Positions 9,887 through 21,835 of a stretch of 64,000 bases of DNA are shown here, piece after piece (within the stretch, counting starts at the first letter, position 1; each line of letters opens with the position of its first letter). Under the pieces are notes generated by a model. It was not told where the DNA came from. It was given only the letters and a program-made list of their open reading frames with translations, and searched no databases. Location of the stretch: positions 62,001 through 126,000 of the forward strand of contig JAJZQX010000009.1 in NCBI GenBank assembly GCA_021806645.1, given 5' to 3'. The stretch comes from Myxococcales bacterium. Lineage in GTDB: Bacteria > Myxococcota > Myxococcia > Myxococcales > Anaeromyxobacteraceae. A program made the translations under genes and the position numbers.

Positions 9887-12800
9887 TCACCACTCGAAGG
9901 ATTCGTCGGCGTCGATGTCCCGGACCAGGCCGCCGGAGGACGGGTCGGTGCGGAAGCCGAAGCGCTTCAGGTACTCGGGCTGGAAGTAGCCGGTCTCGAC
10001 CGCGGAGACCCCGCGGGAGCGCAGCCGCCGGAAGAAGTCGCGCATCAGCCCGTCGGCTATCCCCTTGCTGCGGTTCTTGCGGGCGACCACCAGCTTCTCC
10101 ATGTGGACGCGCCAGGCGGACACCGGGCGGTAGAAGAGGCCGGCGATGACCGACTCCCTGGAGTCGAGCGCCAGCAGGAACTCGTGCTCGGTGGAGAAGG
10201 CCACCTGCAGGTTGGACTCGTGGAAGAGGCTGAGCAGGCGCGCCACCTCTCGCGGTGAGACCGGCCCGCGCAGCGAGTAGCGGCTGCCGTCGCTGGCGTC
10301 CTGCGCCACCACCACCTCGGCGGTGAAGTGGTCGCCGTGCGGCATGGAGATGAGGGCCACCTGCTCGGCGGGGCCGAGGTAGCGATAGGTCATGCGGGCG
10401 AGACCGTGGTCCTCGGCCTCGGTCGGCTTGACGGCGGACCTCAAGGCCGCCACCTGCTCGGCCAGGTCGAGCGCGCCGGCCGGCAGCGCCCGCGCCCGGT
10501 GCATGAGCCGGTCGAGCGCGGCACCCAGCTCGGGCCTGGCGCCGGCGAAGACGGTCTGCCGGAAGAACCGGACGCGCGTGTCGGGCCACTGCGCCTCGAG
10601 CTCGCCGAGCCGGTAGGTGCCCCACTGCTCGCCGAGGTGCTTCGACTGCGCTTCCGGCGTGGCGTGCGGGTTGACCTCCAGCCAGCGCTTGAAGCGGCGG
10701 ACGGCGAAGAAGAGCCGGAGCGGCGTCGGCCCTTCGGTCCGCAGCCGGTCGAGGAAGGAGGAGACGGCGATGGCCCTCTTGCCGCCGGCGGCCTCCTCCA
10801 GCACCCGGATGGCCCGCTCCGCGCCGAGCGCCTCCACCACGGCCGCCAGCAGCAGCTGCTCGGTGACCTTGCCGCGCAGCTCGGGGAGCGGCTCCTCGAC
10901 CCGGTCGAGGAAGCTGGCCTGGAAGCGATCGAGCAGCTCGTCGAGCGAGTCGCAGGCCGAGCGGTCGGCGATCGAAACCAGCCGCGCCCCGGTCTGGTAG
11001 TCGTGCGACGGCACTATGAAGGCGGACGGGGAGGGCAGGCGCAGGGCCAGGCGGCGGCCGGCCCGGTCCCAGAAGCGGACGTGCAGCTCAAGCGCCGTGG
11101 AGGCCACGAAGGGCCAGAGCAGCTCGAGCCGCTTACCCTCGCCCTGGCGGAGCAGGCGCGCCACCTGGCGCTCCACGTCGTTCCCTGGGATGAACTCCTC
11201 GGTGAAGACTCCCCACTCGCCGAAGTAGCCGGCGAACTGCTCCACCAGCGGCGGCGGGGCCCCGGCGGCCAGCAGCCAGTTCACCTCGTCGCGCAGCTGC
11301 CCGAAGGAGAGCTCCTCGGCCACGTTGATGGCCATGTCGAAGGTCTCGCGAGAGCGGGTGCGGATGGAGAGGCGGTAGACCGCCTTGCCGTGCTGTCGCC
11401 CGAGCAGGCTCACGGTGGCGCCGCCGGGCGGGATGTCGGCCAGCGAGAGGAGCACGCCGCGCCCGAGCAGGAAGACCGAGGCGCGCACCACGGTGGTGTC
11501 GGAGAGCGCCTGCAGCAGCATCTGGCTGGCCTCCTGCGTGACCGAGGGCTCGAAGACCAGCACGTCGCTCCAGCCGTACTCGTGGCCGGTCTGGGGATCG
11601 ATGGCGAGCCGGAGGTTGGGGCCGATCCAGTTGGAGAAGCCGCGGCGCAGCCGGTCGAGCTCCTCGCCGGCGCGGGCGCAGATGCCGGCGTCCTCGTGGA
11701 GCGTCAGGCGCGCCAGCGGCACACGCACACGAGCGAAGTATGCGGGGTGGGCGATGGCGGTGGCGGTGAGGAGCCGCATCACGCCGACGAGCAACTTCCG
11801 GCTGGACGGGTCGTGGAGCGGCTCGTTGGCGCGGTCGGAGGCGAGGTACTCCAGGAGCCGCAGCACCTGCGCGTCGGAGAGGCCGCGCTCGCCGAGGTCG
11901 GCCAGATCCTCGTCGCGCAGCGCCATGGCCTCCATCCGGTCGAGGAAGCTGCCCAGCGTCTCCAGCGTCAGGGCCGGATCCTCGTTGGGCAGCAGGACGC
12001 GGAAGGCGCGGCGCCGGACATCCGCGTCGGGCGCGTCGGCGGCGCGCCGGAGCAGGGCTCGGCTCAAGCGGGCCTGCTCCGGAGAGGCAGCGGTCATGCC
12101 GCGCTGCAGGTGGGCGATGGCGCGCCTCGCCTCCGGACGTTCGGCCCGGAGCAGCTCGGCGGCCGCGTGGATGGAGAGGAAGCTGACCTCGGGCCGGTCC
12201 ACGAGATCGAGCAGGGCCGGCAACCGCTCCGGCGGCGGGCCGTGCCAGTTCCGCGGGTCGATCCGGTACTCGCCGCCGCCCTTGCGCCGCTTGGCGGCCA
12301 GGGCCAGGAAGGCCTCGTCGCCGAGGAACCGGCGCAGCGCCTCGTTGCCCAGCCAGAGAGCTGGACGCGAGAGCAGGATGCCGAGGTCGATGACCGTCCC
12401 CTCCGAGGCGTAGGCGAGGTCGCCCAGGCGGAACGAGCCGGGCGCCGCCACGTCGGGGCCGACCGCCAGCGCGCGGTCACCGGCACGGAGCACCCCTTCC
12501 TGGAGGGAGACCTCGTGCTGCAGAGCCCCGATCTCGCGCAGCACCCAGTTGGGAACGCGCAGGAACCACCCGTCGACGGCCAGCGCCAGGTGCTTCTGCT
12601 CGTACATCTTGTCGATCAGCTCCTTCCACGACTGCCCCACGGCCTCGCGCTTGAAGGTGTGCTTCTGGGTCAGCTCGCCGTGCTCGGCGTCGAGCGCCCG
12701 CGGCAGCACCTGGAAGGTCACCACGCGCTCGAAGGGGGCCAGGAACCGGTTGGCGCTGGCCACCAGCGAGGAGATGAGGTCGCGCAGCCGCTCCGGCGGC

Positions 12801-14542
12801 AGCTCGCGCAGGTGCGGCTGCTGCTGGTAGTTCGGCCAGACCAGCAGGGTGTTGTAGTCGCGGTGATCTCCGACCAGGAAGGCCTGTCCGATGGCCTCGA
12901 AGTCGCGGAAGAGGTTCTCGACGCGGGCCGGGGCGATGGTCTGCCCGGAGCGGTTCTTGTAGATCTCCTTCTTCCGTCCGACGATCCGGTAATGGCCGTC
13001 GTCCACGCTCACCAGGTCGCCGGTGTGGAACCAGCCGTCCGGTTGGTGCGCGCCGGCCACCTCGGGCCCCCCGTCGAGGTAGCCGGGCGAGACGTAGATG
13101 CCACGGATCAGCAGCTCGCCGTCCTCCGCCCGTCGGCACTCGATGCCCGGGAGCGGGACCCCGATGGACCCGTCCACGTAACCGCCAGGCGGGGTCATGG
13201 TGACGCCGCCGGTGGCCTCGGTCATCCCGTAGCCGGAGCAGAGCTCGACGCCGGCCTCGTGGAAGTTCTTGAAGATGGTGGGGTCGAGGTAGCCGGCCGC
13301 CGAGAGGCCATGGCGCAACCGCGTGCCGGTGATGACGCGCAGGTGGCCGGCGGTCTCCTCCTCGTCCTCACCAGCGGCCTCCCACGCCGCCGCGTCCTGC
13401 AGCTCGATCCACTTCTTGGGGACGGAGATGAAGACGGTCGGCTTCACGCTGCGGAAGTCCTCCAGGAGCGAACTCTGCGCGGTGGAGCGCGCGAAGGTGT
13501 AGGTGGCGCCCCACCAGAGGGTGCCCACCAGCTCCAGCCACCGGCCGAAGGTGTGGTAGAGCGGCAGGTAGCAGAGGAAGACGTCGCCCTCGCCCACCCG
13601 GGGCAGCGCGAAGCCGCGGCAGAGCCGCTTCGAGACCAGGTTCTCGTGCGTGAAGACGATGGCCTTGGGCTTGCCGGTGGTGCCCGAGGTGTACATCGCC
13701 GTGGCCACGTCGGTGACCTTGACCCGGGCCGCGCGCGCCGCGCGCAGCGGCTCGTCGAAGCCCGCGCCCTGCCCGATCATCTGGTCGAGCGACAGCAGCC
13801 CGTTGCGCTCGGCGCAGGAGGAGTCGAAGACCACCAGGGCCTTGAGGTCCGGCAGCCCCGCCAGCGAAGGAAGCACCTTGGCGACCTGCTCCTCGTCCGA
13901 GACCAGCAGCACCTGCGCCCTGGAGTGCCTCAGCATGTAGACCACCTGCTCGGCCACGGCGTTGGCCGGGAGCGGGAAGTCCACGAAGCCGTTGGTGAGG
14001 CAGGAGAGATCGCAGAGCGCCGCCTCCAGGCCGTTCTCCGAGAGGATGGCCACGCGCGTCTCCGGCTCGTCGCCGACGACGGCCAGCAGGCCGCGGGCGA
14101 TGGCGCGGGTGCGGCGCGCCACCTCGGCCACGGTCAGGTCGGTGGCGTCCGGGCCGATGGTCCGGATGGCCACCACCTTCGGGTCGGTCTCCTCGCGCGA
14201 GCGGAGCAGTTCCCCAAGCGTGAAGTTGGCGTGGCGGAGGAGCGGGAGCAGGAGCCGCAACCACGGGTCGATGCGTGGCTCGGACAGGGTCTCGGTGAAG
14301 CCGCGGCGCCGGACGCCGTCCAGCAGCGCGATCAGGGCGTGGCGCGCCCCCGGCCGGGTCGGCTCCGGCCCGAGGCGCTGGACCAGCGCGCCGACCAGGG
14401 GTTCGACCTCGGCGAGGTCGCCAGGGGTGACGGAGCGGAGCGCTTCGCAGGTCGCCTCTTCGAGGGGGCGGTCGACCGCTGTGGCGGCCGACCAGCGCTC
14501 CGCCAGGCGCGTGAATGGGGACAGGATGGTGGCCTCGACCAT
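9887..14542 (-). CDS. Acyl-CoA synthetase / helical / kinase-like / GNAT fusion protein (1551 aa)
   Basis: Residues about 100-650 are a complete AMP-forming long-chain acyl-CoA ligase: P-loop TSGTTGKPK 285-293, GYGMTEATG 437-445, WFHTGDL 504-510, GRKKEIYKNRSGQ 522-534 and a C-terminal lysine segment near 627. Residues about 755-970 are Arg/Leu-rich helices of HEAT-repeat appearance. Residues about 970-1330 show strands resembling a kinase or aminoglycoside-phosphotransferase fold (FTEEFIPG hinge at 1113-1120) without an HxD catalytic motif. Residues about 1380-1551 form a GNAT acetyltransferase with acyl-CoA loop RSKGIAD and YLKRFGF. It heads the operon with homocitrate synthase and an exporter. 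Middle domains are my inference; substrate unknown. Confidence 0.85.
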   Translation of the reverse strand: MVEATILSPFTRLAERWSAATAVDRPLEEATCEALRSVTPGDLAEVEPLVGALVQRLGPEPTRPGARHALIALLDGVRRRGFTETLSEPRIDPWLRLLLPLLRHANFTLGELLRSREETDPKVVAIRTIGPDATDLTVAEVARRTRAIARGLLAVVGDEPETRVAILSENGLEAALCDLSCLTNGFVDFPLPANAVAEQVVYMLRHSRAQVLLVSDEEQVAKVLPSLAGLPDLKALVVFDSSCAERNGLLSLDQMIGQGAGFDEPLRAARAARVKVTDVATAMYTSGTTGKPKAIVFTHENLVSKRLCRGFALPRVGEGDVFLCYLPLYHTFGRWLELVGTLWWGATYTFARSTAQSSLLEDFRSVKPTVFISVPKKWIELQDAAAWEAAGEDEEETAGHLRVITGTRLRHGLSAAGYLDPTIFKNFHEAGVELCSGYGMTEATGGVTMTPPGGYVDGSIGVPLPGIECRRAEDGELLIRGIYVSPGYLDGGPEVAGAHQPDGWFHTGDLVSVDDGHYRIVGRKKEIYKNRSGQTIAPARVENLFRDFEAIGQAFLVGDHRDYNTLLVWPNYQQQPHLRELPPERLRDLISSLVASANRFLAPFERVVTFQVLPRALDAEHGELTQKHTFKREAVGQSWKELIDKMYEQKHLALAVDGWFLRVPNWVLREIGALQHEVSLQEGVLRAGDRALAVGPDVAAPGSFRLGDLAYASEGTVIDLGILLSRPALWLGNEALRRFLGDEAFLALAAKRRKGGGEYRIDPRNWHGPPPERLPALLDLVDRPEVSFLSIHAAAELLRAERPEARRAIAHLQRGMTAASPEQARLSRALLRRAADAPDADVRRRAFRVLLPNEDPALTLETLGSFLDRMEAMALRDEDLADLGERGLSDAQVLRLLEYLASDRANEPLHDPSSRKLLVGVMRLLTATAIAHPAYFARVRVPLARLTLHEDAGICARAGEELDRLRRGFSNWIGPNLRLAIDPQTGHEYGWSDVLVFEPSVTQEASQMLLQALSDTTVVRASVFLLGRGVLLSLADIPPGGATVSLLGRQHGKAVYRLSIRTRSRETFDMAINVAEELSFGQLRDEVNWLLAAGAPPPLVEQFAGYFGEWGVFTEEFIPGNDVERQVARLLRQGEGKRLELLWPFVASTALELHVRFWDRAGRRLALRLPSPSAFIVPSHDYQTGARLVSIADRSACDSLDELLDRFQASFLDRVEEPLPELRGKVTEQLLLAAVVEALGAERAIRVLEEAAGGKRAIAVSSFLDRLRTEGPTPLRLFFAVRRFKRWLEVNPHATPEAQSKHLGEQWGTYRLGELEAQWPDTRVRFFRQTVFAGARPELGAALDRLMHRARALPAGALDLAEQVAALRSAVKPTEAEDHGLARMTYRYLGPAEQVALISMPHGDHFTAEVVVAQDASDGSRYSLRGPVSPREVARLLSLFHESNLQVAFSTEHEFLLALDSRESVIAGLFYRPVSAWRVHMEKLVVARKNRSKGIADGLMRDFFRRLRSRGVSAVETGYFQPEYLKRFGFRTDPSSGGLVRDIDADESFEW

Positions 14543-14743: not shown

Positions 14744-15379
14744 TCAACGCTGGTCGACGGCGCGGAACCCGAGACGCACGGCGCCCCAGTGCATGCCGCG
14801 GACGAAGACGGGGACCGAGAGGTCCACCATGGTCTCGCCGGTGTCCCGCTGGTACCGCTGGACGAGGAAGGGGGCCGCGCTCCTGGCCGCCGCGAGCCCG
14901 GTCTTGTCGTTGAAGATGCGCTTGGTCCGGTTGTTGACCAGGTCGTTGGCCAGGTTGCCGGTCAGCGGCTGGGAGTAGCGGAGGTTGTGGGTGGGGAGAT
15001 AGCCGTTCCGGTCGACCAGGACGGCGAAGACCAGGTTCCCCGAGCGGGTCAGCACGGCCTCCTCGATTCCCTGGATGTCCCGGTCCGAAAGCCGATCCCA
15101 GTCGGTGGTGAACTTGGGCGGGTCGGTGTTGGCGGTGGGATAGTAGAGGAAGGAGAAGAGCCGCTCCTCGCTCACCTCCTTGGCGGCTAGCCACCCCTCC
15201 ATGGTCTCGGAGACCCGGCGGGCGAAGTCCTGGGCGACGCCGAACATCTCCCTCTCCTGCGCGTTGAGCGCGTCGAGCTGCGCCGTGGTGGGCTTGGGCT
15301 GGGCCACGCCCGGGGTGGGCGCCAGCACGGCGACGGCGAGAAGGAACGACGCGAACAACGTGGTGGTGGTCCTGGTCAT
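14744..15379 (-). CDS. Secreted sensor-domain protein (single Cache-like domain, no membrane anchor)
   Basis: 211 residues. A signal peptide (about 1-26, ending V-A-Q) is followed by one extracytoplasmic ligand-binding domain and nothing else. The segments GYLPTHNLRYSQPLTG, NRTKRIFND and TGETMVDLSVPV are shared with the next upstream protein and with the periplasmic part of many deltaproteobacterial chemoreceptors. There is no second membrane segment, HAMP or kinase. It could be a soluble periplasmic ligand-binding partner of the membrane-bound paralogue encoded 13 bp upstream. Ligand unknown. Confidence 0.75.
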   Translation of the reverse strand: MTRTTTTLFASFLLAVAVLAPTPGVAQPKPTTAQLDALNAQEREMFGVAQDFARRVSETMEGWLAAKEVSEERLFSFLYYPTANTDPPKFTTDWDRLSDRDIQGIEEAVLTRSGNLVFAVLVDRNGYLPTHNLRYSQPLTGNLANDLVNNRTKRIFNDKTGLAAARSAAPFLVQRYQRDTGETMVDLSVPVFVRGMHWGAVRLGFRAVDQR

Positions 15380-15392
15380 GGTCGTGTCTCCT

Positions 15393-16310
15393 CTAGCCGC
15401 CGAGCCGGCTCATGGCCGCCTTCATGCTGACGCGTAGCCGCTCCACCGTCCTGGTGAGCTGCCCGATCTCGTCGGTGGACTGGGACTTGATGGGCGTGTC
15501 GAGCCCTTCGCCCATGCTGATGGCGCTGGCGGCGGCGGTCAGGTCCGCCACCGGTCGCATCGCCCGCTCCACCACCACGTAGATGGTGAGGATGGTGATG
15601 AGCGCGAAGGCGGCGAAGATGACGGTCAGCGTCAGGATGAGGGTCCGCTGCTTGGCGGCGATCCGCTCCATCGAGACGCCGACCCGGAAGGCGCCCCAGT
15701 GCTTGCCCTTCACGAAGATGGGGCTCGAGACGTCCCACATCCGCTCGCCCGTGTCGCGCGGGTAGTCCTGCAGGAAGCCCGGCTGAGTGTTCTTGGCGGC
15801 GGCCAGGCCGACCGGATCGTTGAAGACCCGCTTGGTCCGGTTGCCGGCCAGGTCCTTCTCGGGGATGCCGGTGAGCGGTTGCTGGTACCTGGTGTTGTGG
15901 GTGGGCAGGTAGCCGTTGACGTCGACGCCCACCGCGAAGAGGAAGTCCCCGCTATCGAGGAACTTGTCCTGGAAGACCAGCACCGCCCGGTCGCAGAAGG
16001 CGTCGAAGCGGGTGTGGAACTTGGGCTTGTCGCCCCAGGCCCAGCCCTTGATCTCGACGTAGGAGCGGTCGAAGACGTCGTTGACCGTCAGCAGGCCGTC
16101 GTCGATGGCGTTGTCGAAGGTGTCCCCGAATTGCCGCGAGCCGAGCGCCGCCGCGAGCCGCGCCTTCTCGAGAGTCGAAGCCTCCATCTGCTGGGTCCGC
16201 GTGACGGTGATGATGGCCGCCGCGCCGGTGGTGAGCACCAGCAGCAGGATGGCGAGCGTCACCGAGATCTTGAGGCTGAGCCGGCTCCGAATCGTGGTGA
16301 TGAGTGACAT
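15393..16310 (-). CDS. Membrane sensor with Cache-like domain and HAMP, no output domain
   Basis: 305 residues: membrane segment 1 (about 15-36), extracytoplasmic domain 37-220 containing GYLPTHNTRY (133-142) and TGERMWDVSSPI (187-198), membrane segment 2 (about 223-247), then a HAMP domain (248-300) and stop. It looks like a chemoreceptor or histidine kinase that ends just after HAMP. Since no transmitter follows, it probably acts through a partner, most obviously the roadblock proteins or kinase encoded upstream in the same direction. It is paralogous to the secreted protein downstream. Start ATG chosen 21 bp after the preceding gene. Confidence 0.8.
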   Translation of the reverse strand: MSLITTIRSRLSLKISVTLAILLLVLTTGAAAIITVTRTQQMEASTLEKARLAAALGSRQFGDTFDNAIDDGLLTVNDVFDRSYVEIKGWAWGDKPKFHTRFDAFCDRAVLVFQDKFLDSGDFLFAVGVDVNGYLPTHNTRYQQPLTGIPEKDLAGNRTKRVFNDPVGLAAAKNTQPGFLQDYPRDTGERMWDVSSPIFVKGKHWGAFRVGVSMERIAAKQRTLILTLTVIFAAFALITILTIYVVVERAMRPVADLTAAASAISMGEGLDTPIKSQSTDEIGQLTRTVERLRVSMKAAMSRLGG

Positions 16311-16331
16311 GGGGGTCTCCGCTCCGTGGGG

Positions 16332-17099
16332 CTACTTGCCGCCGGTCTTCTTCAGCGAGGCGAGGAAGGCCTGGCGGTCCGCGTCGTCTTCGATGCGCAT
16401 GGCCAGCTCGTCGGCCAGCGCCCGGCTGGCGGCCAGCGAGAAGGGGAGATCCGGACAGACCTTCCGGACCGCCTCCTCGACGAAGATCTTGGCCATGGGG
16501 CCGACGTGGCGCGCCAGCTCGTGGGCGCAGGTGTTGAGGAAACCGGCCGAGGCCTGATCGGCCGCCATCACGCCGCCGGATCCGGTGCGCGACCAGGTCA
16601 GGCCGGAGTTGGCCAGCGCCGGCCGGGACCCGCTCGCCGCCGGGGGACCAGCCTGGGAACCGCCGGGACCCGGGGACGGTGGGTAGGTCGGGAGCGAGCC
16701 GACCGACGAGCCCTGCCCGGTCCCGACCGCCGATGACGAGGCGCCGCCGTCGAGCGCCCGCTTCAGCTTGTTGGAGGAGACGCGGATGGCCACGGTGGCG
16801 AAGGCCGGGTTGAGCGTGGCGTCGGCGACGAGCGCCAGCACGCAGGGCCCGGCGGAGGTGGTGTCGAGCCGGCGGAGCAGCAACGTGCCGTCCGTGAACT
16901 GGGCCGAGGCCGACTCCCAGTCCTCGTGCTGGAGCTGCATCGAGTCGATGGCGCGGGCCAGCGGACCGCCGACCTGCTCGCAGAGCGCCCGGTCGTAGAC
17001 CGAGCGACCTCGGTGGGCCAGCAGCCGCCCGGCCCCGTCGAAGAGCACGGCGGCGTTGACGCCAGCCATGTCGAGCAAGCCTTGAAGGATGGTCTCCAT
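16332..17099 (-). CDS. Roadblock/LC7-domain protein with C-terminal helical domain
   Basis: 255 residues. The first about 120 residues follow the roadblock/LC7 pattern (a helix, then V-N-A-A-V-L-F-D-G-A-G-R-L-L-A strands, and T-L-L-L-R-R-L then C-V-L-A-L-V-A). A Gly/Ser/Pro-rich linker (about 135-180) leads to a helical domain (GPMAKIFVEEAVRKVCPD) of a kind seen in myxobacterial kinase-linked proteins. Roadblock proteins usually dimerise and regulate Ras-like GTPases such as MglA; no GTPase gene is in the window. The gene starts one base after the preceding roadblock gene, so the two are coupled. Confidence 0.75.
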   Translation of the reverse strand: METILQGLLDMAGVNAAVLFDGAGRLLAHRGRSVYDRALCEQVGGPLARAIDSMQLQHEDWESASAQFTDGTLLLRRLDTTSAGPCVLALVADATLNPAFATVAIRVSSNKLKRALDGGASSSAVGTGQGSSVGSLPTYPPSPGPGGSQAGPPAASGSRPALANSGLTWSRTGSGGVMAADQASAGFLNTCAHELARHVGPMAKIFVEEAVRKVCPDLPFSLAASRALADELAMRIEDDADRQAFLASLKKTGGK

Positions 17100-17100
17100 G

Positions 17101-17424
17101 TCAGGTCCACTCCTGGAACGCGGTGTCCACGGCGCGCTCGACCGGGCCGAGTGACTGCGGTGGGGTGACCAGCGCGGTGATGAGGGCGCGTGGGCGCACC
17201 ACCAGCAAGCAGGCGCCGGCCGGTCCGGAGAGCGAGAAGGAGGTGAGTGCTCCGAGGCCGAGGACCTCGCCGATCTCCAGCAGCGTGCTGCCCACGAAAC
17301 CCATCTCGGCGGCGATGGTCTCGCCGTCGGCGGTGCGGTGCGCCCCGAGGAAGGTCCCTTCGAGGTCGCCGAGCACGGCGGCGCTGACGCCAGGCAGGCC
17401 CGCCACGGTTTCCAGCTCAGTCAT
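17101..17424 (-). CDS. Roadblock/LC7-domain protein (107 aa)
   Basis: 107 residues, about the size of a single roadblock/LC7 domain: V-S-A-A-V-L-G-D-L-E-G, a central helix, then T-S-F-S-L-S-G-P and A-C-L-L-V-V-R strands, followed by a C-terminal helix. The ATG at 17424 is preceded by a clean GGAGG with seven-base spacing, which decides against a Met 30 codons upstream. With the longer roadblock protein immediately downstream it may form a heterodimer. Cytoplasmic. The ends of the Ser/Thr kinase gene and this gene are separated by 105 bp, which may contain a separate promoter. Confidence 0.75.
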   Translation of the reverse strand: MTELETVAGLPGVSAAVLGDLEGTFLGAHRTADGETIAAEMGFVGSTLLEIGEVLGLGALTSFSLSGPAGACLLVVRPRALITALVTPPQSLGPVERAVDTAFQEWT

Positions 17425-17529
17425 GTGATGGCCTCCGTTCCAGGGGTGGTCCCTCCGATGGGTGCGACGTTGCGGCTGCCGCGGTGAGACCGATGTCCAG
17501 GCCGACTCAAGCATACCCTTTCGGAGCGC

Positions 17530-19440
17530 TCAAGGGTTCCGCTCCTCTGGCCAGGGCGGAAGACCAGCGTTCCGGCGGCAGGTGTCGATGACCACACGCG
17601 CTTCTGGCGTCGGCCAGCCCGGCGGCGCGGCGACCTGCTCGGCCGGCGGTCGGGCCTCCGGCCATGTGGTTTCGGCGCTCGCGGCCCAGGCCTGCCAGGA
17701 GGTGATGGTGGGGCGACCGATCGCGGCGGCCAGCGCCAGCATGTTCGAGCCGATCACGTCGATGACCCCAGGGCGGCCGCCGGAGCGGTGGGCGAGGAGC
17801 AACAGGGCATCGGCGGACAGGTGTATGGGTGGCGCCCCGGAGGCCCGGCTGGCGAGGAGCCAGGCGCGGAGGTAGTGGGCCACCTGATCGGCGTCAAGAG
17901 GCGGAACCGGGAGTTCGACGCAGCTGTCCGGCGTCGCCGGGGTGGTCTCGGAGGAGAGCCGGCGACCCAGCCCCGGAGCCCCGGCCACGACCAGCTTGAA
18001 GGTGCGTGACCAGTGCGCCGCCGACGCCAGCGTCGCGAGGTCGGGCGCGAGCCCCGGTCCACCGTCCAGCCCGTCCAGGATCAGGAGTGGAACTGGCCGG
18101 CCGCGCTCCTCGCCGAGCCGGTGAAGCAGGCCGTCGAGCCGGGTCGCCCCCTCGTCGGGGACACCGGCGGCGCGGCAGATCCGCTGCACCGCGGTCCGGC
18201 CGTCATCGCGGCTGGAGCCGTCCGCGAGCAGCACCAGCCTCGCGGCGGACGCGGAGACGTCGCCGGCCAGTTGCCGGAGCAGCGTCGACCGGCCGCTGCC
18301 CGCCGGGCCCGTGAGCGCGACCAGCGCGGCGCCGGGTCCTTCGACCAGCGACCGGAGCTGGCGGCGGACGCCGTCGAGCGGGGCGGCCTGGAAGGGCGCC
18401 GCGGCCGGATCGAAGGGGCCGAAGGGTGCCTGCGTGAACTTGAGGCGTCCAGCCAGCGCCGGCGGTGCGGGGCGGGCCGCAGGCGGTCTGGGGGGCGGCG
18501 GTCGGGCGGGCGGAGCCGCCATGCTCGCCGGTGGGTTCGCGGCGTGTTCGGCGGTGGCCAGCTCCTGCAGAACGCGGCGCCCTTCCCACATCAGCACCTG
18601 GGCGGACGGCTGGCGGTCAGTCGGGTTCTTGGCCAGCGCGCGCATCACCATCGAAGCGCTGGAGTCGGGGAGCCCGTGGACCAGCTCGCGAGGATCCGGA
18701 ATCGCCGCGGTGAGATGGGCGCGTTCGACCTCGGCCAGGTCGGCGCCGACGAAGGGCGGCCGCCCGGTGAGCAGGTGGAAGTAGGTGGCGCCGAGCGAGT
18801 AGATGTCGGAGGCCTGGTTGGCCACGGCGCCGCGCCAGATCTCCGGCGCCGTGTAGAACGGCGTGCCGGCGCGCACGCTGGCGTTGCCGACGGGGACGCC
18901 GGCCGAACCGTGGGCCATGCCGAAGTCGCCCAGCTTGGTCATGCCACCCGGGCCGATCAGCAGGTTGCCCGGCTTCACGTCGCGGTGGACCACGCCGGCG
19001 ACGTGTGCGGCGTGGAGCGCCGAGGCCGCCTGGACCAGGATGTCGGTCGCCGTCTCGGGCGGCAGCCGCCCTTCCCTGGCGATGAGCGCCTCGGTCGACT
19101 GGCCCGCCACGTACTCCATGGCGATGTAGCAGTAGTCCCCCTGCTTGGCCGCACCGTAGATCTGGATCACCCGCGGGTCGTTGATGCGGGCCACCAGCCT
19201 CGCCTCGCCCAGGAACCACTGGACCGGGTCCTGCCCGCGAGTCTCGGCGCTGGCCCAGGCCAGCACCTTGATGGCGGTGGGGCGGAGCAGCGCTTCGTCT
19301 TGCGCCAGGTAGACGACCCCCATCCGGCCCCGCCCGAGGACCCTCTCGAGCCGGTAATTGCCCAGCTTGACGCCGGCCAGCCTGGAGAGATCCAGGGGCC
19401 CTTGGCCTTTGGGGTCGAGGGTGACGGGCGCGTTCGGCAT
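17530..19440 (-). CDS. Serine/threonine protein kinase fused to an AAA/ExeA-like ATPase
   Basis: 636 residues. Residues 28-290 are a Hanks-type kinase with all key motifs: glycine loop GRGRMG 36-41, Lys 58, HRDVKPGN 152-159, DFG 172-174 and APE 198-200. A Pro/Ala-rich linker (300-330) leads to a P-loop ATPase: Walker A GPAGSGRST 378-386 and Walker B LLILDGLD 452-459, resembling ExeA/GspA or STAND-like modules. No membrane segment, so the kinase is soluble, unlike PASTA kinases. The gene is 10 bp downstream of the DUF4388 gene. The ATPase could switch or localise the kinase; that is inference. Confidence 0.88.
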   Translation of the reverse strand: MPNAPVTLDPKGQGPLDLSRLAGVKLGNYRLERVLGRGRMGVVYLAQDEALLRPTAIKVLAWASAETRGQDPVQWFLGEARLVARINDPRVIQIYGAAKQGDYCYIAMEYVAGQSTEALIAREGRLPPETATDILVQAASALHAAHVAGVVHRDVKPGNLLIGPGGMTKLGDFGMAHGSAGVPVGNASVRAGTPFYTAPEIWRGAVANQASDIYSLGATYFHLLTGRPPFVGADLAEVERAHLTAAIPDPRELVHGLPDSSASMVMRALAKNPTDRQPSAQVLMWEGRRVLQELATAEHAANPPASMAAPPARPPPPRPPAARPAPPALAGRLKFTQAPFGPFDPAAAPFQAAPLDGVRRQLRSLVEGPGAALVALTGPAGSGRSTLLRQLAGDVSASAARLVLLADGSSRDDGRTAVQRICRAAGVPDEGATRLDGLLHRLGEERGRPVPLLILDGLDGGPGLAPDLATLASAAHWSRTFKLVVAGAPGLGRRLSSETTPATPDSCVELPVPPLDADQVAHYLRAWLLASRASGAPPIHLSADALLLLAHRSGGRPGVIDVIGSNMLALAAAIGRPTITSWQAWAASAETTWPEARPPAEQVAAPPGWPTPEARVVIDTCRRNAGLPPWPEERNP

Positions 19441-19449
19441 CTTCGCGGG

Positions 19450-21534
19450 TCAGGTTCCGGGGCTGGGTACGGGACCGCGGGAGGACTCGTCACGCTCCCT
19501 GAACAGCTCCAGCAGCAGGTGCTGGGCGTCAACCTCGATGCTGGCGTCGCCACCGGGCGGCGTCTCCTCCTCCCGGGTGAAGGCGAACTCGCCGTCGCTC
19601 CAGTCGATCAGCTCACGCAGCACCTGCTCGATCTGCTGCCGGCCGGCCTCGCGCACCGCGGCGGCATCGGCCGCCCCGTGCTGGACCAGCCGGTCGGCCA
19701 GGCCGGCATCGACCAGCGTGCCCTCGCGGGCCGGGCCGACCGAGGCCAGGGCCTCGGCGGTGAGCTTGCCGTTGCGGACCAGCAACTCCCCGAGGCTGGG
19801 CGTCGAGGGGGCGGCGGCGCCGGTGATCTTCCCCTTGCGGAAGCGGAACGCCCCCATGCCGCCATGCGAGCTGCAGACGAGCAGGCCGCTTCGCCCCGCG
19901 GTGCGCAGGAACTCGACCAGGTCGGCGAGAGAGAAGACGCTGAGCCGCCCGGAGAACATCGAGTCGAGCCCGGAGAAGGCGGCGCGGGCACCCTGCGGGA
20001 GCAGGGCCGAGTCGCCCACCTCCGGCGCCGTGGCCGTGCCGGAGGTGGTTCTCGCGGCGGGCCCGGGTGCCGGCAAGCCGCCGGCGGCCTTCAGCGCGGT
20101 CGTGGTGCAGCTCAGCCCGAGGGTCACGAGCGCCTTGTCGGAAGGCCCGAGCGGCTGCTTGAGCAGCCACTCGAAGACCTCACGGGCGGGGGCGTAGCGC
20201 CCCAGCTTGACCAGCAGCCAGGCCAGGGCTTCCCGCGCCTGGAAGAAGCGCGGCGAGGCATTGGCGATCTTCTCCAGGGCCTTCAGGTTCTGGCCGGAGG
20301 GGGGGGCGAGGTGGATGCGCAGGAACTCGCCGGCGTCGGCCAGCGAGACCCGCCGCTGGGCCACGGCCTCCAGGAGCATGCGGAGCCGATCGGCGGCGGG
20401 GGAGCGGATGTCCCCCAGCGCCGCCGTGGCCGTGGCCGGGTCCCCCGCCATCACCGCCCGGCTGGCGAGAAAGACCTGCGGCTCGTCCCACGTCGGATCG
20501 GCCTCGCGGGCCTTAACGGCCGCGGCGACGCAGGCGGCTTCATCCCGGGTGGAGAGGATGCGCGCCTCGGCGAGCCAGGACTGGCCGAGGCCCCACTGGT
20601 CGGCCACGCGCTCGAAGCGGCCGCGGGCCTCCGCCAGCCAGCTCAGGGCCTTGTTCTGGTCGCCGCCGCGGGCCAGCAACTCGGCCGCCAGCAACTGGCT
20701 GACGCCCCGCGCCTCGACGTCGAGCTGGCGTGAGAGCGCCAGCGTGTCGCGGACGTGGTCCCTCGCCGCCTCGGCGCCGCCGCTCTGCAGGGCGGCCCGG
20801 GCCGACCAGTAGTGGGCCAGCCACCGGATCGAGCTGTTGGGCTGCGCCTGGCTGGCCAGCTCGGACAAGGTGCGGGCGCCGCCCATCGGGTCACCGGCCA
20901 TGATGCTGCCGATCCCCTCGAGCAGACGCTGCATGGCCGCCTGCAGGGCCGGAGCGGGGAGCGGCTCGCTGCCAGGCACCGGGTCCAGGTCGGCGCCCGC
21001 GTCCACGATGGCCTGCTGGAAGGCGGCGGCGTGGGTCAGGTGGCTGCGGACCAGCGCCCGGCGCAGCGAGCCCCACGGGTCGTCGATGGCCATCAGGCTG
21101 GCGGCGGGAGCGGGTCGAGCCGGGTCAGGGCGAGTGGGTGACGGGGGCTCCACGGCCGGGAGCGAGCCGGTGAGGCCCGACCGCGCCGGGGTCGCCCCGG
21201 TGGCCGGCCGCACCTCGCCTAGCTGCCACGCGTCCAGCGTCTCGATGGTGCGGGCGAGCCGCTTGACCGGGTCCACGTCCACGAAGAGGAAGAGGTCGGC
21301 GCGGACCGCGGTGAGCGTGGTCCGGTGCGGCCCCTTCATCTCGAGCCGGAGCAGCGCTTCGAAGCCGAGGGCCGCACCGGCGGCGCCCAGCTCGGTTACG
21401 GCGACGGCCACCGCGGCCGCCTCGTCGGCGGCAGCGGGGAGTTCCTTGACCGTGGCATGGACCTGGCCGCGCCGATCGGCCAGCAGGGCGCCGCGGACCT
21501 CCACCAGTTCGCCCAGCCGGGGAGGAAGGCTCAT
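19450..21534 (-). CDS. TPR protein with C-terminal DUF4388 (PATAN) domain
   Basis: 694 residues. The first about 100 residues have alternating strands and helices of roadblock-like character; a Pro-rich spacer follows; about 180-500 are helical pairs with TPR-like spacing (for example W-L-A-E-A-R-G-R-F-E-R and R-Y-A-P-A-R-E-V-F-E-W-L-L). Residues 527-694 are a DUF4388/PATAN domain (FSGRLSVFSLADLVEFLRTA, then G-A-F-R-F-R-K-G-K-I). DUF4388 is common in myxobacterial and geobacterial signalling proteins as an interaction module. It is the first gene of the minus-strand signalling locus, opposite the tRNA-Arg. Confidence 0.8.
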   Translation of the reverse strand: MSLPPRLGELVEVRGALLADRRGQVHATVKELPAAADEAAAVAVAVTELGAAGAALGFEALLRLEMKGPHRTTLTAVRADLFLFVDVDPVKRLARTIETLDAWQLGEVRPATGATPARSGLTGSLPAVEPPSPTRPDPARPAPAASLMAIDDPWGSLRRALVRSHLTHAAAFQQAIVDAGADLDPVPGSEPLPAPALQAAMQRLLEGIGSIMAGDPMGGARTLSELASQAQPNSSIRWLAHYWSARAALQSGGAEAARDHVRDTLALSRQLDVEARGVSQLLAAELLARGGDQNKALSWLAEARGRFERVADQWGLGQSWLAEARILSTRDEAACVAAAVKAREADPTWDEPQVFLASRAVMAGDPATATAALGDIRSPAADRLRMLLEAVAQRRVSLADAGEFLRIHLAPPSGQNLKALEKIANASPRFFQAREALAWLLVKLGRYAPAREVFEWLLKQPLGPSDKALVTLGLSCTTTALKAAGGLPAPGPAARTTSGTATAPEVGDSALLPQGARAAFSGLDSMFSGRLSVFSLADLVEFLRTAGRSGLLVCSSHGGMGAFRFRKGKITGAAAPSTPSLGELLVRNGKLTAEALASVGPAREGTLVDAGLADRLVQHGAADAAAVREAGRQQIEQVLRELIDWSDGEFAFTREEETPPGGDASIEVDAQHLLLELFRERDESSRGPVPSPGT

Positions 21535-21761: not shown

Positions 21762-21835
21762 GGTTCCGTAGCTCAGCTGGATAGAGCAACTGTTTCCTAA
21801 ACAGTAGGCCGTGGGTTCGAGTCCCGCCGGGACCA
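21762..21835 (+). tRNA. tRNA-Arg (anticodon CCT)
   Basis: A full cloverleaf can be folded: acceptor GGTTCCG with CGGGACC (one G-T pair), D-stem GCTC/GAGC, anticodon stem ACTGT/ACAGT around loop TTCCTAA, and T-arm GTGGG-TTCGAGT-CCCGC. The anticodon CCT reads AGG arginine codons. The discriminator is A and the 3' CCA is not encoded. Confidence 0.95.

Follow-up and report, generated by a model that had tools for sequence, protein, structure and literature searches.

A HAMP-ended receptor encoded with roadblock proteins, a Ser/Thr kinase and a DUF4388 protein: a candidate signalling module in Anaeromyxobacteraceae

Introduction

How does a membrane receptor whose cytosolic part ends at its HAMP domain pass a signal into the cell? 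HAMP-only receptors (Af1503 and its kin) have been used as structural models and, to our knowledge, the effector of Af1503-type receptors is unclear. The question is raised anew by a locus from a genome of the Anaeromyxobacteraceae, in which a receptor of this kind is encoded with roadblock proteins, a Ser/Thr kinase and a DUF4388 protein. An earlier note on the window (the whole stretch of 64,000 nucleotides that was analysed) saw there a self-contained route from an external ligand through HAMP to roadblock proteins and a soluble kinase. We put at about even the chance that the locus is a module for transmembrane signalling via an output-less HAMP receptor, read by a roadblock-STAC protein that in turn controls the kinase and a Roadblock-DUF4388 protein.

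Organization and conservation of the locus

The locus comprises six genes, all on the minus strand within 14744-21534, as the earlier note had it, and arranged P1-P2-P3-P4-P5-P6 along that strand. With a revised start for P3, the intergenic gaps from P1 to P6 are 9, 105, 1, 21 and 13 bp. A scan of the locus for a sigma70-like promoter and for terminators yielded no hit above chance. In all six genes codon position 3 is less conserved than positions 1 and 2, a sign of purifying selection. Pfam finds neither a histidine kinase domain nor an MCP or GTPase domain in the six genes, and che genes and transporter genes are likewise missing from them. The claim that the locus lacks a histidine kinase, a chemotaxis output and a GTPase thus holds for the six genes; it overlooked an MglA GTPase elsewhere in the genome. 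The search for such a GTPase, proposed in the same note, found a standard mglB-mglA pair on contig C9, separate from the locus.

A single-sequence search of contigs returned one locus, JAJYAW010000193.1 (a Myxococcales bacterium MAG), and the survey covered the Myxococcota. Both P4 and P6 occur in the same 12 of 24 genomes of the family, and the other 12 have neither. Full-length orthologues of P1 occur in 8 of the 24, and were detected only in genomes that carry the operon. Gene order is the same on every contig long enough to display it; P1 to P6 are complete in five genomes, the remainder being cut by contig ends. The order is kept across four genera and in a distant genome of ~50% GC. Judged by gene content and order, the six genes are inherited together as a unit, and the neighbourhood survey that had been suggested as a check came out in favour of genes conserved together.

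The receptor and the secreted sensor

P5 (15393..16310, 305 aa) consists of a first transmembrane segment, an extracytoplasmic single-Cache-like sensor, a second transmembrane segment and a HAMP domain (residues 249-295, 15426..15566; Pfam E 2.9e-8), whose best PDB match by sequence is the HAMP of Af1503 (E 6.3e-8). Its stop codon lies 10 residues past HAMP, and the distance is about 10 in 13/13 homologues. Since all of these end after HAMP, P5 is a receptor without an output domain and not the product of a frameshift, and its description as a receptor ending at HAMP stands. When 195 genomes were searched with a profile of the HAMP tail (E <= 1e-9), 25 matches were obtained. The ORF stops 0-4 residues later in 18 of them and runs on for 182-274 residues in the other seven; the best 18 matches by domain E-value are all of the ending kind. 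One of the 18, possibly a broken gene, is matched over only half of a HAMP. Roadblock genes adjoin 15 of the 18 HAMP-ended receptors; the three that have none beside them are found in G011 (two) and G010 (one).

P6 (14744..15379) has a signal-peptide-like N terminus and shares 43% identity with the sensor of P5, its paralogue, in keeping with the secreted sensor described earlier. The model of P6 (mean pLDDT 66.8) matches the WalK sensor with Z 12.8 and rmsd 2.9 over 130, and sCache_3_2 is weakly matched in 4/13 homologues. Both sensors are thus predicted to have a single-Cache/PAS-like extracytoplasmic fold. One scanned protein, L042, joins a P5-type sensor domain to an MCP signalling domain, and the sensor domain recurs in the similar longer ORFs L041, L115, L116 and L120.

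Roadblock domains in P1, P3 and P4

The earlier note counted two roadblock proteins, P3 and P4. Both are retained, and P1 makes three. Searched alone, neither P3 nor P6 has a credible Pfam or NCBIfam match, and their assignments are therefore drawn from sets of homologues and from models. P3 is a small protein (17101..17424, 107 aa), whose start was moved from 17514 to 17424, from where homologues align. At E <= 1, Robl_LC7 is weakly matched in 7/12 P3 homologues (best E 4e-4) and matched in 11/12 P4 homologues (best E 1.7e-6); in the P3-like protein of G161 it is over the cut-off. Structure leads for P3 by sequence are 7f8m and 9jue (E 0.014 and 0.57). Profile-profile comparison detected no similarity of the P3 family to either the P4 family or the MglB of the same genome. 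The roadblock assignment of P3 thus draws on Robl_LC7 in its homologues, the two structure leads and the N terminus of P1, the comparisons with MglB and P4 being blank.

P1 (19450..21534, 694 aa) was described earlier as a DUF4388-TPR protein. Its DUF4388 (residues 528-684, 19483..19953), a domain that we take to be the same as PATAN, is clear (Pfam E 1.8e-22) and present in 5/5 homologues, and the TPR-like part has a weak Pfam match. What had been missed is an N-terminal roadblock domain (residues 1-105, 21220..21534), which is followed by a linker. It matches the P3 family in profile-profile comparison (98.3%, E 2.5e-14 over 103 columns), and Robl_LC7 is matched in 2/5 P1 homologues. P1, P3 and P4 all bear roadblock domains, and the locus accordingly encodes three such proteins.

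P4 (16332..17099) has a roadblock domain (residues 1-118), a linker and a C-terminal domain (residues ~182-252). On its own, P4 gives a weak Pfam roadblock match, and its family matches the MglB of the same genome only weakly (4.5%, E 0.009). The N-terminal fold of the model resembles MglB and LAMTOR roadblocks (Z about 12; Foldseek E 5e-6), the model as a whole being of low confidence (mean pLDDT 45). Structural matches by VIA-align span residues 1-121 only, and Af1502 is not among them. Weak matches of the P4 profile in G055 and G118 were dropped; these ORFs are presumably dihydrodipicolinate-reductase-like.

The C-terminal domain of P4 (16344..16556), which the earlier note did not report, is STAC-like. 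It carries the LGPx(x)A motif as VGPMA at residues 199-203, with GP invariant and A present in most of the 13 domains aligned. Four helices are predicted in the same low-confidence model, and G200-P201 lies between the first two (182-199 and 201-214). In the definition of STAC, as given in an excerpt of PMC4834066, LGPx(x)A joins helices 1 and 2. Compared with PDB sequences, the P4 profile has Af1502 (5a1q) as its best lead, at a weak E of 0.14. For the profile of the STAC-like domain it comes second (E 0.073), behind an apparently unrelated UTP-glucose uridylyltransferase (E 0.026), and its match covers only ~28 residues. In G003 and G024, Ser/Thr kinases end in the same STAC-like domain.

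The kinase and divergent loci

P2 (17530..19440) had been read as a Ser/Thr kinase fused to an ATPase. The kinase (residues 29-282) is well supported (Pfam Pkinase E 2e-43), and its catalytic motifs are intact in the 8/8 kinases that were examined. The C-terminal region (17533..18423) is STAND/AAA-like (Pfam AAA_22 E 2e-7). In its motif, GPAGSGRST, the Walker A Lys is replaced by Arg, as it is in G023, and in other homologues the motif is further eroded or absent. By its sequence the ATPase-like region is degenerate, without the Walker A Lys by which an active P-loop ATPase is recognized. In G010 this region is missing, and the kinase and the P3 roadblock form one in-frame fusion.

In the divergent Myxococcota loci G161:C53, G091, G161:C14 and G162, a HAMP-ended receptor is kept together with P3-like and P4-like roadblock proteins. 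The sensor varies among single Cache, Tll0287 c-heme and PilJ, and the output gene may be a kinase, DUF4388 or both. A full-length P2 homologue adjoins the receptor in G091; no kinase lies beside the receptors of G161:C53 and G162, and DUF4388 was not found beside those of G091 and G161:C14. Neither output is therefore universal. The self-contained route proposed earlier gains from the co-inherited unit in 12/24 genomes and from the G010 fusion, but the kinase is not its obligate end point. Inspection of the divergent loci brought no GTPase to light. A cluster in G192, MglB-MglA-DUF4388-kinase-roadblock, has the same soluble parts with a GTPase. Small loci in G010:C3 and G018:C3 (DUF4388-roadblock, roadblock and a dCache_3 receptor) look like simpler relatives; they were left uncounted because they show only a weak HAMP match (E 0.017) or none and their roadblock has no STAC-like part.

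Comparison with known systems

STAC proteins, Af1502 among them, are described as frequent partners of Af1503-like HAMP-only receptors (PMC4834066, in excerpt). HAMP is the sole cytosolic part of both P5 and Af1503, and in both cases a gene near the receptor codes for a helical domain with LGPx(x)A; for the P4 profile Af1502 is the top, though weak, structural lead. The STAC-like domain of P4 is fused to a roadblock domain, whereas the partner in the Af1503 type is a stand-alone STAC protein of 60-90 residues. Unlike the archaeal pair, the locus is bacterial, with a Cache sensor and with roadblock, kinase and DUF4388 partners, and its six genes include none for a transporter. Actinobacterial conservons (CvnA-B-C-D, AGPS) likewise place a HAMP membrane receptor and a roadblock protein in one operon (excerpts of PMC13343842 and PMC4316618). 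The locus differs from them in having no CvnA-type histidine-kinase module, no recognisable CvnC-type protein and no small Ras-like GTPase; it has a Ser/Thr kinase, a STAC-like domain and DUF4388 instead.

The Myxococcus MglA-MglB polarity module shares the MglB-like roadblock fold, but the unit contains no GTPase, mglBA being a separate locus of the same genome. If DUF4388 is indeed PATAN, P1 shares this domain with cyanobacterial PATAN response regulators (PixG and others), from which it differs in having no receiver domain and in joining DUF4388 to roadblock and TPR. For some of these regulators, binding to the type IV pilus proteins PilB/PilC is described (PMC12288463, in excerpt). Methyl-accepting chemotaxis receptors differ from P5, which has no MCP signalling domain.

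Alternative explanations

The locus might instead be an input branch of MglA/MglB polarity, its receptor and roadblock proteins acting in trans on MglA (GAP-like or recruiting) with the kinase as an accessory. The mglB-mglA pair on contig C9, the closeness of the P4 fold to MglB structures and the G192 cluster agree with this. So do the coupling of receptor, roadblock and GTPase in conservons (PMC13343842, in excerpt) and the PATAN genes reported near some mglA genes (PMC4316618, in excerpt). We consider it unlikely nonetheless, as a GTPase is missing from the six genes and was not seen in the divergent loci, and as the P3 and P4 profiles give no clear match to MglB. Somewhat more doubtful is a kinase-centred cascade in which the receptor complex only switches P2, whose substrates would lie elsewhere, DUF4388 and the TPR of P1 serving as substrate adaptor. 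It would account for the intact catalytic motifs, the kinase-roadblock fusion, the P2 homologue in G091 and the STAC-like domain on other kinases, but not for the receptors of G161:C53 and G162, which have no adjoining kinase.

The existence of L042 and its similar longer ORFs raises the idea that the HAMP-ended receptor modulates chemoreceptor arrays, either through mixed dimers or by competing for ligand with MCPs that have the same sensor domain. This seems very improbable, because the six genes include no MCP domain or che gene, most HAMP-ended receptors adjoin roadblock genes, and P1 to P4 would be left unexplained. That the genes are chance neighbours with no common function is scarcely credible. 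Their absence from half of the family and the result of the promoter and terminator scan would fit, but the order conserved across genera, the kinase-roadblock gene fusion and purifying selection in all six genes speak against it; on these genomic comparisons, co-inheritance, conserved order and the divergent loci largely refute this reading.

Proposed mechanism and significance

In the module that we favour, transmembrane signalling via the output-less receptor, a ligand would bind the Cache domain of P5, helped or titrated by the secreted paralogue P6, and move the second transmembrane segment and HAMP. P4, the roadblock-STAC protein, would read out the HAMP dimer, much as Af1502 may do for Af1503; we infer this direct transfer from HAMP to roadblock. 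P4, P3 and the roadblock domain of P1 could assemble into a roadblock platform that governs the activity of the kinase and places the Roadblock-TPR-DUF4388 protein. The output would most likely come from this last protein, whether it acts as a scaffold, an effector or a target of phosphorylation. By analogy with cyanobacterial PATAN regulators and MglB, the signal might plausibly, if speculatively, end at polar or surface machinery, for example type IV pili.

More tentatively, and with a little less than even confidence, we suggest that the loci represent an undescribed class of bacterial signalling system. Swappable sensors (Cache, c-heme Tll0287, PilJ) would be mounted on HAMP-ended receptors, and a roadblock-STAC adaptor would read these receptors in trans and drive a roadblock-DUF4388 effector, a Ser/Thr kinase or both, without phosphorelay, chemosensory array or dedicated GTPase. 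Among the listings searched in the PMC open subset, we found no paper naming a HAMP-roadblock-STAC unit in Myxococcota. If true, the class would identify the signalling target of HAMP-only receptors of the Af1503 kind. The loci supply named proteins with which readout of HAMP in trans can be tested, and also let roadblock signalling without an encoded GTPase be tested.

Organization and distribution of the six-gene set

The six genes that the earlier note placed on one strand (P1-P6, window 14744-21534, P1 upstream-most) were all found, closely packed on the minus strand of the window (G000:C29:62001-126000; host genome 4.14 Mb, 99% complete), and their domain content was checked against Pfam and NCBIfam. 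The start of P3 should be 17424, because homologue alignments begin at that codon. Against the related genome G023, codon positions 1 and 2 are kept better than position 3 in all six genes. Downstream lies a 1551-aa protein (window 9887-14542) whose first ~650 residues are an AMP-binding acyl-CoA ligase and whose remaining ~900 have no Pfam match at E <= 0.001.

The expectation that the genes are conserved together was borne out by a gene-neighbourhood survey of the Anaeromyxobacteraceae, in which P1-P2-P3-P4-P5-P6 was the one order seen. Five genomes show it in full: the window's own, G023, G003, G005 and G010. A contig end cuts P1 in G009 and G019, and the contig starts inside P2 in G020, G021, G022 and G008. 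The G011 contig opens a short way ahead of P3; here P4 and P5 are separated by a DUF6976 gene, and P5-P6 stands as two tandem copies. P6 occurs in 12 of 24 same-family genomes (four of six genera) and P4 in exactly these 12. P1, full-length or long partial, is found in eight genomes, all among the 12 carriers; family genomes outside those eight match P1 at the level of DUF4388 only. Carriers and non-carriers stand side by side in one genus (g2), and the set was therefore gained or lost more than once. A tRNA-Arg gene at window 21762-21835, 0.2 kb upstream of P1, could, with this patchy distribution, mark a putative insertion site.

Domain architecture

P1 has an N-terminal roadblock domain, TPR-like repeats and a C-terminal DUF4388 (PATAN) domain. 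The kinase motifs of P2 are intact in all eight homologues examined; its ATPase-like region, with Arg in place of the Walker A Lys, evolves faster than the kinase (70% vs 89% identity to G023); G003 and G009 retain it in eroded form, and G010 has lost it. A 443-aa ORF in G010:C3 (L037:8565-9896) is a natural in-frame fusion that joins a P2-type kinase domain, minus the ATPase-like region, to the P3 roadblock. The first 120 residues of P4 are predicted to fold as a roadblock near MglB, with a helical domain at the C-terminal end of the protein. Two hydrophobic segments occur in P5, whose reading frame stops directly after HAMP. P6 is 43% identical to the P5 sensor and is its soluble paralogue, with a signal-peptide-like start; it is modelled as a single Cache that matches the WalK sensor (Z 12.8). 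The P5/P6 sensor domain is also C-terminal in longer soluble proteins (L041, L042, L115, L116, L120), preceded in L042 by an MCP signalling domain.

A profile of P4 searched against PDB sequences gave AF1502 (5a1q) as its top entry, at a weak E of 0.14, with roadblock proteins next; with the C-terminal domain alone an apparently unrelated protein ranked first (E 0.026) and AF1502 second (weak, E 0.073). The 5a1q authors describe Af1503-type receptors, in which HAMP is the sole cytosolic part, as often coupled to small STAC proteins in which an LGPx(x)A motif joins the first two helices (PMC4834066). The weak matches gain weight from context: (V/L)GPxA sits between predicted helices 1 and 2 of the P4 C-terminal domain, and the neighbouring HAMP-ended P5 has Af1503 as its best PDB match by sequence. 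One or more copies of the STAC-like domain also form the C-terminal end of Ser/Thr kinases from G003 and G024, an independent link to kinase signalling, and of another protein from G086. In loci L064, L058 and L059, Ser/Thr kinases and a cyclase-like protein end in two or three copies of the STAC-like LGPxA domain, for which no Pfam name was seen.

HAMP-ended receptors and divergent loci

A census of 195 Myxococcota genomes with a profile of HAMP and tail gave 25 matches at E <= 1e-9. The frame stops 0-4 residues past the match in 18 and continues for 182-274 residues in seven, and score divides the two kinds (domain E 1e-12 or better, and 3e-11 or worse, respectively). The P5 family accounts for 14 of the 18: G161:C53 has one, and the 12 family genomes together have 13. 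Of the remaining four, G091 has a c-heme Tll0287 receptor, G011 has two receptors, one of them with dCache, and G010 has a half-HAMP, possibly from a broken gene. Roadblock genes adjoin 15 of the 18, and none lies beside the G010 half-HAMP or the two non-P5-family G011 receptors.

The locus G161:C53, from another class (~50% GC), encodes a DUF4388 protein followed by P3, P4, P5 and P6, with no kinase. G091 has a kinase, P3-like and P4-like genes, a second kinase colinear with P2 along its whole length (E 6e-47) and the Tll0287-HAMP receptor. Overlapping genes in G161:C14 encode a kinase, a PilJ-sensor receptor ending after HAMP, and P3-like and P4-like proteins; G162:C110 has a PilJ-sensor receptor that ends ~30 residues past HAMP, a fusion of DUF4388 with a P3-like roadblock, and a P4-like gene. 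These last two receptors fall under the census cut-off (E 3e-5 and 2e-4) and were found via P4, whose profile has matches in 25 of the 195 genomes, several weak or C-terminal only. From the gene content of these four loci and the family set, receptor, P3-like and P4-like proteins are constant, and sensor and output vary.

Two further loci, L193 (G010:C3, 6528-9241) and L196 (G018:C3, 6459-9353), combine a DUF4388-roadblock fusion and a small roadblock with a dCache_3 membrane protein that ends soon after TM2; HAMP is weak or undetected in these loci, which are possibly simpler relatives. In G011:C78, genes read from their ORFs as iron-sulfur/FAD oxidoreductase-like directly precede a P4-like roadblock gene with an extended C-terminus (L040:6345-7376).

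Proposed mechanism

P1-P6 are co-inherited with the architecture described, and we infer every contact and activity of the mechanism that is most likely. The Cache domain of P5 would sense, with P6 as co-sensor; HAMP motion would be read by the roadblock-STAC protein P4, which with P3 and the N-terminal roadblock of P1 would form a platform that controls both the kinase and the DUF4388 effector. Type IV pili as the output are a guess by analogy, since some cyanobacterial PATAN regulators bind PilB/PilC (PMC12288463).

The main rival is that the module acts through MglA. The earlier note proposed a search for an MglA-like GTPase partner, and the host genome does encode MglA with MglB, away from the six-gene locus. 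Moreover, a cluster in G192:C39 (L168, 2097-5707) of MglB, MglA, DUF4388, Ser/Thr kinase and roadblock genes places the same soluble parts beside mglBA; no adjacent HAMP-ended receptor was noticed there.

The unit would work like a cross of Af1503/STAC pairs with conservon or Mgl roadblock systems, although it lacks a defining feature of each. No such HAMP-roadblock-STAC unit was found in literature searches of the open PMC subset, and there is a real chance that P1-P6 represent a new class.
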